A stretch of 46,643 nucleotides of DNA from a virus. The stretch spans positions 1 through 46,643 of the IMG/VR virus record IMGVR_UViG_3300033145_000583; one strand, written 5' to 3'. Numbering within the stretch: the first letter of the stretch is position 1; every line of letters starts with the position of its first letter. The notes below the pieces were generated by a model. It was not told the DNA's origin. It searched no databases and saw only the letters and a program-made list of their open reading frames with translations. Below, piece by piece: positions 3,760-46,643 of the stretch. Made by a program: the position numbers and the translations under genes.

Positions 3760-4236
3760 ATGACACTTATTGAAAAACTCAAGGCCAATAAACGTCCTTG
3801 GATATTCTTAACCATTGAAGAAAAAGATTGTTTGCGTAAGGCAAATGAAACCGGCATGGTAGAAAACCTCATATATAACGGGGAATGGGAATGTCTTGGG
3901 AAACCGTGGAAAGGTCTCGGATCAGGAAAAAATGGAACCTACCGAATCAAGCCCGACTACCAGCCGGAGCCGGAGTTCGAGGACTTGGAAATAGTAAAAT
4001 ATTATCAAGGTGTTGCTAAGCAAGCTTGTTGGCTCGGAGTATGGAAAGAAGACTACGATTTTCTACCCTATGAATTCACCCATCTTCACTGCCTGCCGAG
4101 CCTGCCGAACTTCAATAAATTCTGGTTCACCGATGACTTGACCGGGAAGGAATGTAAAGTGCTTTATTCTGACGTATCCAATGCAAGAGACCAAGGCAGC
4201 AAAGTCTTTGCTCGTTTCAGGAAGGAGAAACCATGA
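3760..4236 (+). CDS. Hypothetical protein (158 aa)
   Basis: It starts at 3760 (MTLIEKLKANKRPW) behind ATAGGAGAA; an earlier in-frame ATG at 3715 would overlap the SSB acidic tail and has no RBS. It is rich in aromatic residues with a Pro/Glu-rich linker (QPEPEFEDLE) separating two small domains. No family is recognised. It overlaps the next gene by 4 bases. Confidence 0.75.
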   Translation: MTLIEKLKANKRPWIFLTIEEKDCLRKANETGMVENLIYNGEWECLGKPWKGLGSGKNGTYRIKPDYQPEPEFEDLEIVKYYQGVAKQACWLGVWKEDYDFLPYEFTHLHCLPSLPNFNKFWFTDDLTGKECKVLYSDVSNARDQGSKVFARFRKEKP

Positions 4237-4511
4237 GGCCCGGCAAAAAAATAGTGTGGGGAATATGTTCTACCATACGAATAAATTCTAATTCTAAATG
4301 GGGTTCTTGGACGGGGCCAATAGGTGTTTACGGAATAAAAGAAGTCCCGCAGGAATTAGAAAACCAACTTGCCGGACGGCCTTATTTTTTCAGAACACGG
4401 ACAGAAGCAAGGAAAGCAGTCAGGGCAAAGGAATTAGAAAGCAATAAGACCTGGACATGGTGCAAATTCAAGGTTGTGAAGTATCAATTATCGTGGGAGG
4501 AAGTAAAATAA
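4233..4511 (+). CDS. Hypothetical protein (92 aa)
   Basis: A basic, Trp-rich protein starting MRPGKKIVWG. A helix TRTEARKAVRAKELE lies in the second half. The next gene product has a comparable layout (an N-terminal WGI motif, an ARKEA helix and a VKY strand), so the two may be distant paralogues; this is by-eye similarity only. The function is unknown. Confidence 0.7.
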   Translation: MRPGKKIVWGICSTIRINSNSKWGSWTGPIGVYGIKEVPQELENQLAGRPYFFRTRTEARKAVRAKELESNKTWTWCKFKVVKYQLSWEEVK

Positions 4512-7206: not shown

Positions 7207-7235
7207 TTGATAATTCTCCAATAATGATTTATAGT
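7207..7235 (+). promoter_or_regulatory. Sigma70-like promoter before RNA/HNH cassette 1
   Basis: TTGATA (7207-7212), a 17-base spacer, then TATAGT (7230-7235). The predicted start falls at about 7241-7243, just before the first base-paired strand of the structured RNA at 7244. The matching cassette at 42095 has the same arrangement with stronger boxes. Confidence 0.7.
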
Positions 7236-7243
7236 AATGATAT

Positions 7244-7332
7244 GGAACGCAGAACAAAACATTCAATTACGGCCAGCCGAAGGCAATTCGGGCGAAAGCT
7301 CAATCTGCGTTCCAACTTCGGCTGGCTGTTTT
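7244..7332 (+). ncRNA. H-type pseudoknot RNA upstream of HNH gene, copy 1
   Basis: Stem 1 pairs GGAACGCAGA (7244-7253) with TCTGCGTTCC (7304-7313). Stem 2 pairs GCCAGCCGAAG (7272-7282) with CTTCGGCTGGC (7316-7326). The strands alternate, so both together make a pseudoknot. Between them lie GCAATTC and a small hairpin GGGC-GAAA-GCTC (7290-7301). Stem 2 is followed by TGTTTT, so it can also act as an intrinsic terminator. The same layout recurs at 42137 with different but still complementary stem sequences. It sits 4 bases before the RBS of the endonuclease. It could be a regulatory leader, a stand-alone RNA or part of a mobile element. I cannot assign it to a known RNA class. Confidence 0.8.
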
Positions 7333-7347
7333 ATTGGAGATAGTCAA

Positions 7348-7845
7348 ATGAAACAAATACCCCTAACGCAAGGCAAGTACGCACTGGTTGACGATGTCGA
7401 TTTCGAATGGCTGAATAAATGGAAATGGCGTGCAAAGAAAGACTGCAATACTTGGTATGCTATGAGACATGTTTACCATAATGGTATTCATACGACTATT
7501 TATATGCACCGAGCCATCTTGGGATTAGAAAACGGTGACCCTCGTCAATGTGACCATATCAATCATAATGGCCTCGACAACCAGAGAGAAAACCTGCGAA
7601 CTTGTACCGTTTCTCAAAACCGACGCAATAGCAATCCAAACAAAGATACCTCTTCGATATACAAAGGTGTTAGTTGGCATAAAGGTGGGGGCGGTTGGCG
7701 AGCAATGATTTATGTTAACGGCCATAATGTCAATCTTGGTTATTTCGCATCTGAGATAGAAGCAGCTAAAGCTTATGACGTATTAGCTATTAAATACTTT
7801 GGCGATTTTGCATATACCAATTTTAAGGAGGTTGCATGTACGTAG
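7348..7845 (+). CDS. HNH homing endonuclease with AP2 domain, copy 1
   Basis: A 165-residue protein. The N-terminal part (LTQGKYALVDDVDFEWLNKW, YAMRH, MHRAILGL) leads into the HNH_3 core CDHINHNGLDNQRENLR (about residues 68-84). It is followed by an AP2-type DNA-binding domain (YKGVSWHKGGGGWRAMI...AAKAYD). Such enzymes cut DNA and spread their own gene. The start at 7348 is chosen because GGAGA (7336-7340) precedes it; an in-frame start at 7237 would run through the structured RNA. A relative lies at 42236. There is no sign of an interrupted host gene on either side. Confidence 0.9.
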   Translation: MKQIPLTQGKYALVDDVDFEWLNKWKWRAKKDCNTWYAMRHVYHNGIHTTIYMHRAILGLENGDPRQCDHINHNGLDNQRENLRTCTVSQNRRNSNPNKDTSSIYKGVSWHKGGGGWRAMIYVNGHNVNLGYFASEIEAAKAYDVLAIKYFGDFAYTNFKEVACT

Positions 7846-8213: not shown

Positions 8214-8729
8214 ATGGTGTGTAAAAGATGTGGCCAATGCTGTATTAAAGTAGGTTCAACGTTTTGGACTCATGCCGATGGCAGTGGTTATCCAGAACTA
8301 CAAAAATGGATCAACGATGCGGTTCTCAAGGGCGACGATGGTATGCCGTGCGAGATGCTCGTAATTGAGGATGGGATGGCGGAATGTTATATAGAAACTT
8401 GTTTCGGCAAAGAAGCTAAGCCCGAAGTATGCCGAGATTATCCCGAAGAAGGTCTATGTTTTTTCGAGCAGGAAGAAAAACCCGACACAGAAATAGTAGT
8501 TAGGCTCAAGAGACGTATCAAGAGGCTTAAGCGTGAAGTCGAGTCCAAAGAGGTAGAAATGGTCACGCGGGGTGAAGAAATAACCAAACTCCGGCGTTTA
8601 ATCTATTCTTGCGGCGACATGATTGCAAAGGGGCTTTACGAAAAGATGTTAGCTATAGTCGATGAATACGATAGCCGGTGCTTACTGGCTACGAAACGGA
8701 AGGAGCCTACTTCCACGACGGGGGCTTGA
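8214..8729 (+). CDS. YkgJ-like Cys-cluster protein with coiled coil
   Basis: A 171-residue protein. The N-terminus CKRCGQCCIKVG, followed by later cysteines in CYIETCFG and PEVCRDYPEEGLC, matches the YkgJ / zinc- or iron-cluster family pattern. The second half (about residues 100-150) is a charged coiled coil. The start at 8214 is fixed by AAGGAGAAA. The last six codons (TSTTGA) come from a repeated DNA element shared with an unrelated gene at 9448. The role in the phage is unknown. Confidence 0.7.
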   Translation: MVCKRCGQCCIKVGSTFWTHADGSGYPELQKWINDAVLKGDDGMPCEMLVIEDGMAECYIETCFGKEAKPEVCRDYPEEGLCFFEQEEKPDTEIVVRLKRRIKRLKREVESKEVEMVTRGEEITKLRRLIYSCGDMIAKGLYEKMLAIVDEYDSRCLLATKRKEPTSTTGA

Positions 8730-8741
8730 TGAGACGAAAGG
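8706..8741 (+). repeat. Interspersed repeat CTACTTCC...GAGACGAAAGG, copy A
   Basis: A 36-base element: CCTACTTCCACGACGGGGG, then CTTGATGAGACGAAAGG. It forms the last codons (PTSTTGA) of the upstream gene and supplies the AAAGG ribosome-binding site of the downstream gene. Copies lie at 9031 and 9425. Confidence 0.85.
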
Positions 8742-8972: not shown

Positions 8973-9030
8973 TGATGTTTTCCTCGCACTGCCTTGGGTA
9001 CGGTGTATCTGCGCCAGAATTGAAGATAGA

Positions 9031-9065
9031 CTACTTCCAAGACGGGGGTCGGACGAGACGAAAGG
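9031..9065 (+). repeat. Interspersed repeat, copy B (intergenic)
   Basis: This copy (ACTACTTCCAAGACGGGGG, then TCGGACGAGACGAAAGG) lies in a 140-base noncoding gap (8973-9112) and differs from copy A at a handful of positions. The rest of the gap shows no gene. Confidence 0.8.
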
Positions 9066-9112: not shown

Positions 9113-9448
9113 ATGAGTAGAACACAACACTTTTTAGATTGCGGATGCAAATCATGCGTCAATCAATTATTGGTTGACATCGAAAAACTTGAAGCCAAGA
9201 ATGCTGCGACGAAAAAACGGATACAAGAAATGTACGCAGGGGATTTAAGCCCTGAGAGCCGACTGAGCGGTTACATAGTTATCGTAAAGCATCTACAAGA
9301 GAGAATAGCTAACGTGTCTAACGATCTAAATTGGTATCAGAAAGCATTGGAAGATATTGTTAAAATGAAAGACTCGACAATGCTACGCGATATAATCGAC
9401 GTGGTCGAGCAAGCTCTAAACCGGCCTACTTCCACGACGGGGGCTTGA
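9113..9448 (+). CDS. Coiled-coil protein with Cys knuckle (111 aa)
   Basis: It starts MSRTQHFLDCGCKSCVNQLL behind AAGGAGAAC. An N-terminal CGCKSC cluster is followed by a coiled coil (about residues 20-95). The C-terminal PTSTTGA is encoded by repeat copy C and is identical to the end of the unrelated gene at 8729. It is the last + strand gene before the convergent late unit. Confidence 0.7.
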   Translation: MSRTQHFLDCGCKSCVNQLLVDIEKLEAKNAATKKRIQEMYAGDLSPESRLSGYIVIVKHLQERIANVSNDLNWYQKALEDIVKMKDSTMLRDIIDVVEQALNRPTSTTGA

Positions 9449-9457
9449 CGAGACGAA
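9425..9457 (+). repeat. Interspersed repeat, copy C
   Basis: CCTACTTCCACGACGGGGG, then CTTGACGAGACGAA; nearly identical to copy A at 8706. It encodes the C-terminal PTSTTGA and the stop of the gene at 9113-9448. Confidence 0.85.
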
Positions 9458-40684: not shown

Positions 40685-41099
40685 GGTTTTTGCCCCGTTG
40701 CACTTTTGGCGTTTTCCGTCCCATTCGCACCGTTACACTTTTGACGTTTTCCGTCCCATTCGCCTCCGGTTGGACCTGTATCTGCATCGGAACCAGGGGA
40801 GTACCGTCCTTGCCGGTTATCTCCTGCTTATCGGCTTGGCCTAACACGTTCTTACCAAGGAATATCGCCATTGCAGGCTGTTTATGACTCATTGCACGCT
40901 GGTCAGCACGCAGTTCAACCTTGTGTTGCTGCCTTTTTTTGAGTAATTTCCTTGCAATATCCTTACGCTTAAAGATAAATCCTTCTTCCCACCCCATCAT
41001 GCCCTCTATCGTCCCATTCTGGCAGTTGTCCAGTGCATATCCTTCGGCTCTTGCCATATCTTCTGGGCTAATATACTTCTTTTTACCTCTACCTGCCAT
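40656..41099 (-). CDS. Terminase small subunit-like protein
   Basis: A 147-residue protein. The N-terminal helical part YALDNCQNGTIEGMMGWEEG looks like a helix-turn-helix. A middle QPAMAIFLGKNVLGQADKQE block closely follows the A-I-F-L-K-N-LGW-DKQE pattern of small terminases. The C-terminus is basic. Its location at the start of the late unit, upstream of TerL, fits. It would recognise the packaging site and load DNA on TerL. Confidence 0.75.
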   Translation of the reverse strand: MAGRGKKKYISPEDMARAEGYALDNCQNGTIEGMMGWEEGFIFKRKDIARKLLKKRQQHKVELRADQRAMSHKQPAMAIFLGKNVLGQADKQEITGKDGTPLVPMQIQVQPEANGTENVKSVTVRMGRKTPKVQRGKNHDKDDINGN

Positions 41100-41488
41100 T
41101 ATCTTAGCACCTCCCTTGCGTTATATATCTTATTCTCGGCTGTATTTAGGCTTTCGGTTAGCCTCTTTATTGCCTTATCTTTAGTATCTATAAGTGCGTC
41201 CCTACGCTCTATTGCCTGCTTTAGTTGTTCTATTTGTTCGTCTTTATCTTGTGATGGTCGGCTAACATAGTAGTCGGGATATTCTTGCGGCCCGAATAGG
41301 TTTACGGGGTCGATATGATATACTTCGCACAGTTTACAAGCTTCACTCCACAACGGTTCGGATCCCTGTTCGATCGCGTGTATCCTTCCAAAGCTAATGC
41401 CTGATATTTCGGACGTCTTAACAGCCGATATCTTTTGCTTTTGCCTTAATTCCTTTAGTTTACTGCTATAATCGCTTATTTCGGGCAT
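41099..41488 (-). CDS. XRE-type HTH regulator with coiled coil
   Basis: A 129-residue protein. The N-terminal HTH (LKELRQKQKISAVKTSEISG, then ISFGRIHAIEQGSEPL) matches Cro/C1-type DNA-binding domains. The C-terminal half is a coiled coil (DEQIEQLKQAIERRDALIDT) for multimerisation. It is the second gene of the late unit. A near-palindrome at 41612-41633 upstream is a candidate binding site. A TAATG-type overlap joins it to the small terminase. Confidence 0.75.
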   Translation of the reverse strand: MPEISDYSSKLKELRQKQKISAVKTSEISGISFGRIHAIEQGSEPLWSEACKLCEVYHIDPVNLFGPQEYPDYYVSRPSQDKDEQIEQLKQAIERRDALIDTKDKAIKRLTESLNTAENKIYNAREVLR

Positions 41489-42094: not shown

Positions 42095-42123
42095 TTGACA
42101 GGATCGAATGTAGTCGATATATT
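42095..42123 (+). promoter_or_regulatory. Sigma70 promoter before RNA/HNH cassette 2
   Basis: TTGACA (42095-42100), a 17-base spacer, then TATATT (42118-42123). Predicted transcription begins at about 42130, a few bases before the pseudoknot RNA. It diverges from the late promoter at 41944-41972. Confidence 0.85.
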
Positions 42124-42136
42124 ATATATATGAAAT

Positions 42137-42223
42137 GCGATGCAGTACAACACAATCTAAAATCCAGCCAGGGGCAATTCGGGTGCAAGCCCAAACTGCA
42201 TCGCAGCCTTGGCTGGTTTTTTT
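42137..42223 (+). ncRNA. H-type pseudoknot RNA upstream of HNH gene, copy 2
   Basis: Stem 1 pairs GCGATGCAGT (42137-42146) with ACTGCATCGC (42195-42204). Stem 2 pairs CCAGCCAGGG (42164-42173) with CCTTGGCTGG (42207-42216; one G-U). The core GCAATTC is the same as in copy 1, followed by a GGGT-GCAA-GCCC hairpin (42181-42192). Both copies have GNRA-type loops and the same 21-base spacing between the second and third strands. Stem 2 is followed by seven Ts and then ATTGGAG, the RBS of the endonuclease. Stem sequences differ from copy 1 at many positions yet remain paired, which is strong evidence for a real structure. Confidence 0.85.
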
Positions 42224-42235
42224 ATTGGAGTTGAC

Positions 42236-42727
42236 ATGAAGCAAATACAACTTACAAGGGGCAAAGTTGCATTAGTTGACGACGCTGACTACGAACGGTT
42301 GAATCAATGGAAATGGTGCGCGATAAAAAACCATAATACATGGTATGCTACGAGATATATTACAAAGTTGGATGGGAAACACACGTCTATTTCGATGCAC
42401 CGGGTCATCTTGGGATTAAAAAACGGCGACCCTCGTCAATGTGACCATATCAATCATAACGGCCTCGACAACCAGAGAGAAAACCTGAGAATCTGTACTC
42501 ATGCCCAGAATCAACATAATCGTCTTTCAAACAAAAACACATCTTCTGTATATAAAGGTGTTAGTTGGCATAAGAATGAGGGCTGTTGGCTGGCAAAAAT
42601 AAGACTTAATGGTAAGTTGAAACATCTTGGTCATTTCGACTCTGAAATCGAAGCAGCAAAAGCATACGACCAAAAAGCTATGGAATTGTTCGGTGAATAT
42701 GCACACGTTAATTTGTCTGTGACGTAA
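42236..42727 (+). CDS. HNH homing endonuclease with AP2 domain, copy 2
   Basis: A 163-residue protein closely related to the product of 7348-7845. It begins with the N-terminal module LTRGKVALVDDADYERLNQW. The HNH_3 core is CDHINHNGLDNQRENLRICT and the AP2 domain runs from YKGVSWHKNEGCWLAKIRLN to AAKAYDQKAME. The start is at 42236 behind GGAG. DNA encoding the HNH core is almost identical between the two genes while the rest has diverged. It sits between the divergent early and late promoters, a permissive site for a selfish endonuclease. Confidence 0.9.
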   Translation: MKQIQLTRGKVALVDDADYERLNQWKWCAIKNHNTWYATRYITKLDGKHTSISMHRVILGLKNGDPRQCDHINHNGLDNQRENLRICTHAQNQHNRLSNKNTSSVYKGVSWHKNEGCWLAKIRLNGKLKHLGHFDSEIEAAKAYDQKAMELFGEYAHVNLSVT

Positions 42728-46185: not shown

Positions 46186-46554
46186 ATGAGTGAATTGCAT
46201 ACATATAAAAGCTATATAGAATATCTAATTGCAGAAGCTCGGACGAGACCGCTTGATAATTTAGCTGCCGGAATACTTTATGTAAATAGACAAGTAGCTG
46301 AACTCAAAGCCGAGAACGAACATCTGTGCGATTTGGTCGAGGACGTCAGGGCGGAGGCAGCGGACTCGTTACTGAAAGAGGAAATTGCCAAGTTAAAAGA
46401 GGAATATGGTACGGCCAACGACATTTTGAGAGACACCGTACAACGACTTAGTCATAGCAAGTGTCCTCACGCTTTGGCTGCAATGGCATGGCTGGAGCAA
46501 GCCCTAAAGGAGAATGACAATGGCAATATCAAAAAATCAACGAGAGATACTTAA
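46186..46554 (+). CDS. Coiled-coil protein (122 aa)
   Basis: A 122-residue protein starting MSELHTYKSYIEYLIAEART behind AAGGGAG. A long coiled coil (about residues 30-95, VAELKAENEHLCDLVEDVRA) is followed by SKCPHALAAMAWLEQAL. It overlaps the next gene by 35 bases. No family is recognised. Confidence 0.7.
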   Translation: MSELHTYKSYIEYLIAEARTRPLDNLAAGILYVNRQVAELKAENEHLCDLVEDVRAEAADSLLKEEIAKLKEEYGTANDILRDTVQRLSHSKCPHALAAMAWLEQALKENDNGNIKKSTRDT

Positions 46555-46643
46555 CCACACATTATACAGAGCGGCAAGTAACTATTACTGTGGCGATTCT
46601 GCCGATATGCAAGCTCTTGTATCTCAGGGATTGATGATATCAG
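46520..46643 (+). CDS. Hypothetical protein, 5' part (gene spans the junction)
   Basis: ATG at 46520 (MAISKNQREILNHTLYRAAS) with AAGGAG at 46506-46511. The frame runs off the window end and continues at position 1 to the stop at 201-203, making a 70-residue product. It is small and alpha/beta-like; the IT.KGRQAL ending suggests a winged-helix fragment, but this is uncertain. Confidence 0.75.
   Translation, partial: MAISKNQREILNHTLYRAASNYYCGDSADMQALVSQGLMIS
46530..46643. repeat. Terminal direct repeat, right copy
   Basis: Exact copy of bases 1-114. Removing one copy closes the circle at 46529 bp. Confidence 0.95.

Follow-up and report, generated by a model that had tools for sequence, protein, structure and literature searches.

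A candidate pseudoknot leader RNA with a predicted 5'-terminal start codon precedes endonuclease and replication genes in phages

Introduction

Leader-peptide control operating together with an attenuator or a pseudoknot is exemplified by pyrBI and by the IncI-alpha RepY/RepZ pair, RepZ being a replication initiator. A different arrangement is found in type III toxin-antitoxin systems, where a promoter, the pseudoknotted ToxI RNA and a terminator-like stem are followed by a gene. Among the homing endonuclease genes of phages, I-TevI, segB, mobE and seg43(25) have structured RNA beside the RBS, which in seg43(25) is a very stable hairpin lying immediately upstream and leaving the RBS free (reviewed in PMC2988022). 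In addition, there are E. coli mRNAs that carry a 5'-terminal uAUG before a Shine-Dalgarno (SD)-led gene, and this uAUG can bind 70S ribosomes and affects how the gene behind it is expressed (Beck, Fleming and Janssen 2016, PMC4965119). Binding by 70S ribosomes has likewise been described for leaderless AUGs (PMC9031893).

The RNA module of about 90 nt described here, which recurs in unrelated phages before endonuclease and replication genes, appears to represent a novel type of leader for phage gene control. Its sharp feature, according to predicted start sites, is a start codon at the first base whose frame remains open through a pseudoknot.

Genomic context and organization of the two copies

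The window, that is, the whole 46,643-nt stretch of viral DNA that was analysed (IMG/VR record IMGVR_UViG_3300033145_000583), is a terminally redundant phage contig in which positions 1-114 are an exact repeat of 46530-46643. This 114-nt repeat at the two ends makes it probable that the contig represents a complete phage genome that was assembled as a circle. Its plus strand carries the early genes, including those of a YqaJ-type exonuclease, an Erf-like annealing protein and YopX, and its minus strand the structural genes. A 34-nt repeat (GCCTACTTCCACGACGGGGGCTTGATGAGACGAA) occurs three times in the early plus-strand region (8705-8738, 9029-9062 and 9424-9457), with 82-97% identity.

Two HNH-AP2 genes, both on the plus strand and 65% identical, encode products with HNH_3 and AP2 domains, and each is preceded in the same order by a sigma70-like promoter, a pseudoknot, a U-rich stretch and an RBS (Table 1). 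The copy 2 gene opens a rightward block and adjoins a divergent regulator-like gene (41099-41488, minus strand). An empty insertion site was sought, and the downstream neighbour yielded no relatives.

An earlier, sequence-only reading of copy 2 had proposed a sigma70 promoter (TTGACA-17-TATATT), a U tract and an RBS before the HNH-AP2 gene, all of which lie where it put them, and the GNRA-capped mini-hairpin and GCAATTC core that it described between the paired strands are also present. Stem B is indeed 10 bp with one G-U pair; stem A, given as 10 bp, is 11 bp long, with all positions paired. The both-side changes that it saw between the two copies are confirmed, and five further loci show them as well.

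Table 1. Features of the two leader copies and their downstream genes in the window (+1 sites and uORFs are predictions)
Feature	Position	Strand	Details
Copy 1 promoter	7207..7235	+	TTGATA-17-TATAGT; TTGATA at 7207, TATAGT at 7230
Copy 1 predicted +1	7242		
Copy 1 leaderless uORF	7242..7343	+	33 codons, predicted; AUG at predicted +1
Copy 1 pseudoknot	7243..7329	+	A 7243-7253 with 7304-7314 (11 bp); B 7269-7282 with 7316-7329 (14 bp)
Copy 1 HNH-AP2 endonuclease gene	7348..7845	+	165 aa
Copy 2 promoter	42095..42123	+	TTGACA 42095-42100; TATATT 42118-42123
Copy 2 predicted +1	42130		A
Copy 2 leaderless uORF	42130..42234	+	34 codons, predicted; AUG at predicted +1; stop TGA ends 1 nt short of the HNH-AP2 start codon
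Copy 2 stem A, 5' strand	42136..42146	+	TGCGATGCAGT
Copy 2 loop L1	42147..42163	+	A-rich
Copy 2 stem B, 5' strand	42164..42173	+	CCAGCCAGGG
Copy 2 loop L2	42174..42194	+	core GCAATTC 42174-42180, then 4-bp hairpin
Copy 2 L2 hairpin	42181-42184/42189-42192	+	loop GCAA (GNRA)
Copy 2 stem A, 3' strand	42195..42205	+	ACTGCATCGCA
Copy 2 stem B, 3' strand	42207..42216	+	CCTTGGCTGG
Copy 2 U tract	42217..42223	+	U7, immediately 3' of stem B
Copy 2 Shine-Dalgarno	42227..42230	+	GGAG
Copy 2 HNH-AP2 endonuclease gene	42236..42727	+	163 aa; ATG at 42236

Conservation of the pseudoknot

The pseudoknot was sought with a descriptor that required two crossing helices (A-B-A'-B'), allowed no more than 3 nt from A' to B' and took the sum of the stacking energies as the score. 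In the window's two copies the best tight pseudoknot near the start codon scored -52.4 and -44.4, and a scan of the whole window returned just two sites below -34, both being the HNH-AP2 leaders. Scores of -40 or lower were reached by 12 of the upstream regions of 166 distinct HNH-AP2 homologues (the two window copies included), as compared to none of 1660 shuffles and none of 679 control ORF upstream regions. In 0.89 Mb of HNH-centred DNA there were 19 matches at -40 or lower with a T-rich tail, 16 of them at the matched HNH gene and 1 more at a second HNH-AP2 gene; this seemingly near-perfect specificity for HNH genes (16-17/19) fell once whole contigs were scanned.

Covariation was studied in an alignment of seven close relatives that could be aligned readily, namely the two window copies and five more loci. 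The structure formed by helix A, the pseudoknot helix B and the small inner hairpin gave 99.4% standard pair cells, with both-side changes in 11 of 25 pairs, a result equalled by none of 500 shuffles, and pairing fell to 26-41% when the helix partners were slid. Distant members have the architecture in common while their stem sequences are unrelated, and their loops vary (L1 of about 10-40 nt, mostly A-rich; L2 of 0-26 nt or longer; L3 of 0-2 nt). Being so poor in sequence, this architecture is missed by homology searches. The near-exact core GCAATTCGGG was rejected as a family signature beyond the close relatives, as the 42 stretches matched in IMG/VR by the exact core pattern GCAATTCGGGNNNAAGCYC were all chance, none having both stems.

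A pseudoknot of this kind could serve as an operator or aptamer and, when bound by a protein or small molecule, keep ribosomes from entering, T4 gene 32 autoregulation and H-type riboswitches being examples of such leaders. The GCANUUC-like core and the small GNRA-loop hairpin, kept in 5 of the 7 near relatives, would suit a binding site, but the core is missing from most distant members, whose L2 can be as short as 0-8 nt, and no Rfam riboswitch matches. Moreover, the proteins encoded downstream differ (see next section), so autoregulation by one protein is unlikely; a bound leader is on the whole distinctly unlikely.

Distribution and downstream genes

Further copies were found in the same contigs with a covariance model. 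When whole phage contigs (0.72 Mb) were scanned with the strict descriptor, 34 matches at or below -40 were obtained, a few of which, without a promoter or in simple repeats, may be chance, versus none in three shuffles and one in reversed sequence. HNH-AP2 genes are the commonest downstream neighbours, and the module also precedes genes for Endonuclease_7 (Endonuclease VII; match 4.8e-24) and HNH proteins, replication-initiator-like genes (one recognised by an HTH_36 match plus a weak DnaD_N match, others by eye), a ParB-like gene (recognised by eye, with no Pfam match) and small ORFs. A DNA pattern scan blind to proteins again placed HNH-AP2, HNH, ParB-like and replication-like genes downstream. 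One 31-kb contig (G004, locus L387) has a separate, diverged module before each of four HNH-AP2 genes and before one helix-turn-helix gene.

The module is carried by about 21-25 of the 166 HNH-AP2 homologues, and its distribution on the HNH-AP2 tree is patchy, since at least 18 changes are needed to account for 25 carriers. No convincing copy was seen in 13 annotated loci of named cultured phages, and the model was unmatched in four bacterial genomes with HNH-AP2 homologues, in a scan run without a positive control.

With respect to known families, Rfam gave no match at the gathering score for the window RNA or the tested relatives; in the window the models of group I introns and of HEARO (IscB-type OMEGA) RNA were unmatched, as was the int-alpA covariance model (RF02996) scanned to E=10, and no description of the module was found in the open-access literature. 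We therefore regard the module as a structured, possibly attenuating phage leader, and judging from sequence the module would be an undescribed, rapidly diverging and structurally constrained class of phage leader RNA.

Of ten other HNH-AP2 loci searched for a similarly placed RNA, int-alpA was detected in eight at E<=0.03, seven of these above the gathering score (L085, L065, L073, L105, L108, L076 and L107) and one below it (L064), in each case directly upstream of HNH-AP2. Through its loop, int-alpA can pair with bases at the RBS or immediately ahead of it. This RNA is a candidate sRNA, and no report of its association with HNH-AP2 was found.

The sequence-only reading, which had not recognised the RNA as a described class and had called for the Rfam comparison, is borne out on that point. 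It had also tied the RNA to HNH-AP2 elements, and an exclusive link of this kind is not supported, given that most homologues lack the module, that others have int-alpA and that further gene types follow the module. HNH-AP2 homologues without the paired strands, which it had named as evidence against itself, are thus the majority, and the substitutions in the seven relatives are compensatory. The differing downstream genes favour expression control, one of the roles it had offered, over a part in a nuclease RNP or a homing site.

An OMEGA-RNA-like or ToxI-like role, in which the RNA would be the endonuclease's partner or antidote, is very improbable, and so is a DNA site for mobility. The likeness of both module and ORF between the two window copies and the frequency of HNH-AP2 as neighbour would agree with such roles, but replication-initiator-like, ParB-like and unrelated nuclease genes also lie behind the module, the free divergence of the stems with pairing kept argues against a DNA target or guide, and repeats of the ToxI kind are absent.

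Predicted 5'-terminal AUG and open frame

Two features not contained in the sequence-only reading are the occurrence of the module beyond HNH-AP2 genes and the AUG at the predicted 5' end of the RNA, with a frame open through the pseudoknot. Promoters were predicted blind to ATG, with +1 assumed 7 nt after the -10 hexamer. Of the 19 members with a good promoter, 16 had an AUG at the predicted +1/+2, versus 11 of 212 (5%) other predicted promoters of the same contigs (Fisher p=6e-15), and in 16 of 18 no stop interrupted the frame from the nearest ATG over the length of the pseudoknot (p=9e-5, the frame being drawn randomly within each member), both p values being somewhat optimistic because the members are partly related. 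Exceptions to the open frame include L394-4488 and L382-6019, where a stop occurs 11 nt before the end of B', and L387-19812, with its ATG at +6. The promoter cut-off leaves out members with weak or other promoters, and those with other promoters (e.g., L080, L097 and L205) have no open AUG frame.

The uORFs terminate shortly ahead of the downstream start codon, on it or a little past it, or their frame enters the gene; in W2, L125 and L129a the stop lies just before or overlaps the next start. In L274 (minus strand, 4214-4301; G007:5099), the module abuts a gene lacking its own RBS and start, and at a T8 run the leader frame and the gene frame join with an offset of one base, which suggests slippage or decay.

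A conserved leader peptide was considered and rejected: identity in frame 0 was barely above that of the other frames and no purifying selection on the peptide was detected. The substitutions are evenly spread over codon positions, meaning that the act of reading would matter rather than the peptide. The predicted AUG-started frame would, we infer, be translated.

Proposed mode of action

The family, its covariation, the position of the promoter, the AUG at the predicted +1/+2, the open frame and the neighbouring genes are the basis on which we tentatively favour, at somewhat less than even confidence, a portable leader acting in cis: a ribosome starting at the 5' AUG would compete against formation of the pseudoknot/terminator, and the outcome would set downstream expression. 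The start of transcription, translation of the leader, termination, their competition and the direction of regulation are what we infer from that basis. In this model, transcription from the sigma70-type promoter would yield an RNA with AUG as its first bases, which immediately adopts a compact A-B-A'-B' pseudoknot with a U tract at its end; the RBS of an early phage gene comes directly after it, in the window that of each of the two HNH-AP2 homing endonucleases. Stem A starts at, or no more than a few bases from, the 5' end of the RNA, so that the folded pseudoknot would bury the 5' AUG, and ribosome loading and folding would be mutually exclusive. Stem B and the U tract are terminator-like. 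A 70S ribosome that occupies the 5' AUG while A' is still to be transcribed would read the leader frame through the pseudoknot, preventing both folding and termination, and would finish at or beside the downstream start codon, or enter the gene in frame, resulting in translation coupling. Without ribosome loading, the RNA would fold and expression would be low. The E. coli mRNAs with a 5'-terminal uAUG (PMC4965119) are a precedent for an AUG in this position influencing the gene behind it.

The intrinsic terminator feature is present in copy 2, with stem B followed by U7, and most members are U-rich at this place, the tract being weak in copy 1 and in several other members; the loop of the stem B/U tract unit exceeds the reach of a simple terminator scanner. 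Helices A and B are compatible, hence there is no classic mutually exclusive antiterminator pairing. The SD is unpaired in the pseudoknot, and both copies have it downstream of stem B and the U tract. In copy 2 a nested fold had raised the possibility of loop L1 sequestering the SD; the signal (p=0.003 over all members) was lost (p=0.21) upon removal of eight cases, mainly mere stem B extensions, and once B-stem extensions were removed conserved L1 pairing with the U tract or SD was not above swapped controls. A T4-type RBS-sequestering hairpin is thus unsupported across members. In L126:1404-1500, L127 and L128 (contig 3300035698_016830), the stretch between SD and ATG duplicates a portion of strand A (CCTGTCC, TTCGACC, ATCCGAC), which would allow it to pair with A' in an alternative fold over the start codon. 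Such pairing, strong in the copies of this contig, is absent from other members and was discarded as a general feature.

The promoter and U tract would equally define both ends of a free small RNA, a stable pseudoknotted molecule of ~90 nt starting at stem A, stopping at the U tract and acting in trans, with the gene served by read-through. The L274 copy, which has no RBS after its U8 tract, is consistent with this possibility, but nearly all copies directly precede an RBS and a gene, with stems that are not conserved there would be hardly any sequence for a common target, and an open AUG frame is not accounted for, making a free RNA unlikely. A more passive role, improbable in our judgement, would be that pairing at the 5' end shields the mRNA from 5'-end-dependent decay and so raises expression. 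Many members do have a stem A that begins with the second base of the predicted RNA, but a plain hairpin would suffice for this purpose, with no need for a pseudoknot, a U tract or an open AUG frame.

To return to the ribosome-competed leader, a module that lies before replication genes and, in the same phages, before endonuclease genes may represent a shared regulatory circuit on which mobile nucleases ride. A rather doubtful extension is a translation-gated phage regulon, in which the leaderless 5' AUG inside a pseudoknot terminator would sense free 70S ribosomes or the host translation state and set the replication-initiator and endonuclease genes accordingly; mobile endonucleases carrying the module would then be expressed in step with replication.

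Comparison with known systems

The int-alpA RNA resembles the module in lying directly upstream of HNH-AP2 genes and in being able to form A-B-A'-B' pairing through its loop, but its sequence and inner hairpins are different. ToxI shares with it the order of promoter, pseudoknotted RNA, terminator-like stem and gene, whereas the module is a single unit without tandem repeats and the protein is of the HNH_3 plus AP2 type, not ToxN-like. As for the phage homing endonuclease genes, the seg43(25) hairpin is likewise just upstream and leaves the RBS free, while the I-TevI, segB and mobE structures sequester it; all four are simple hairpins for which no pseudoknot or 5' AUG frame has been described. 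In pyrBI and RepY/RepZ a leader frame is also read into or through a structure up to the next start codon, but those leaders start at an SD and respond to known signals or antisense RNA, none of which was found here. The E. coli uAUG mRNAs share with the module, by its predicted start sites, an AUG at the 5' end followed by an SD-led gene; what sets the module apart from them is its pseudoknot, its U tract and its covarying family that extends across phages.
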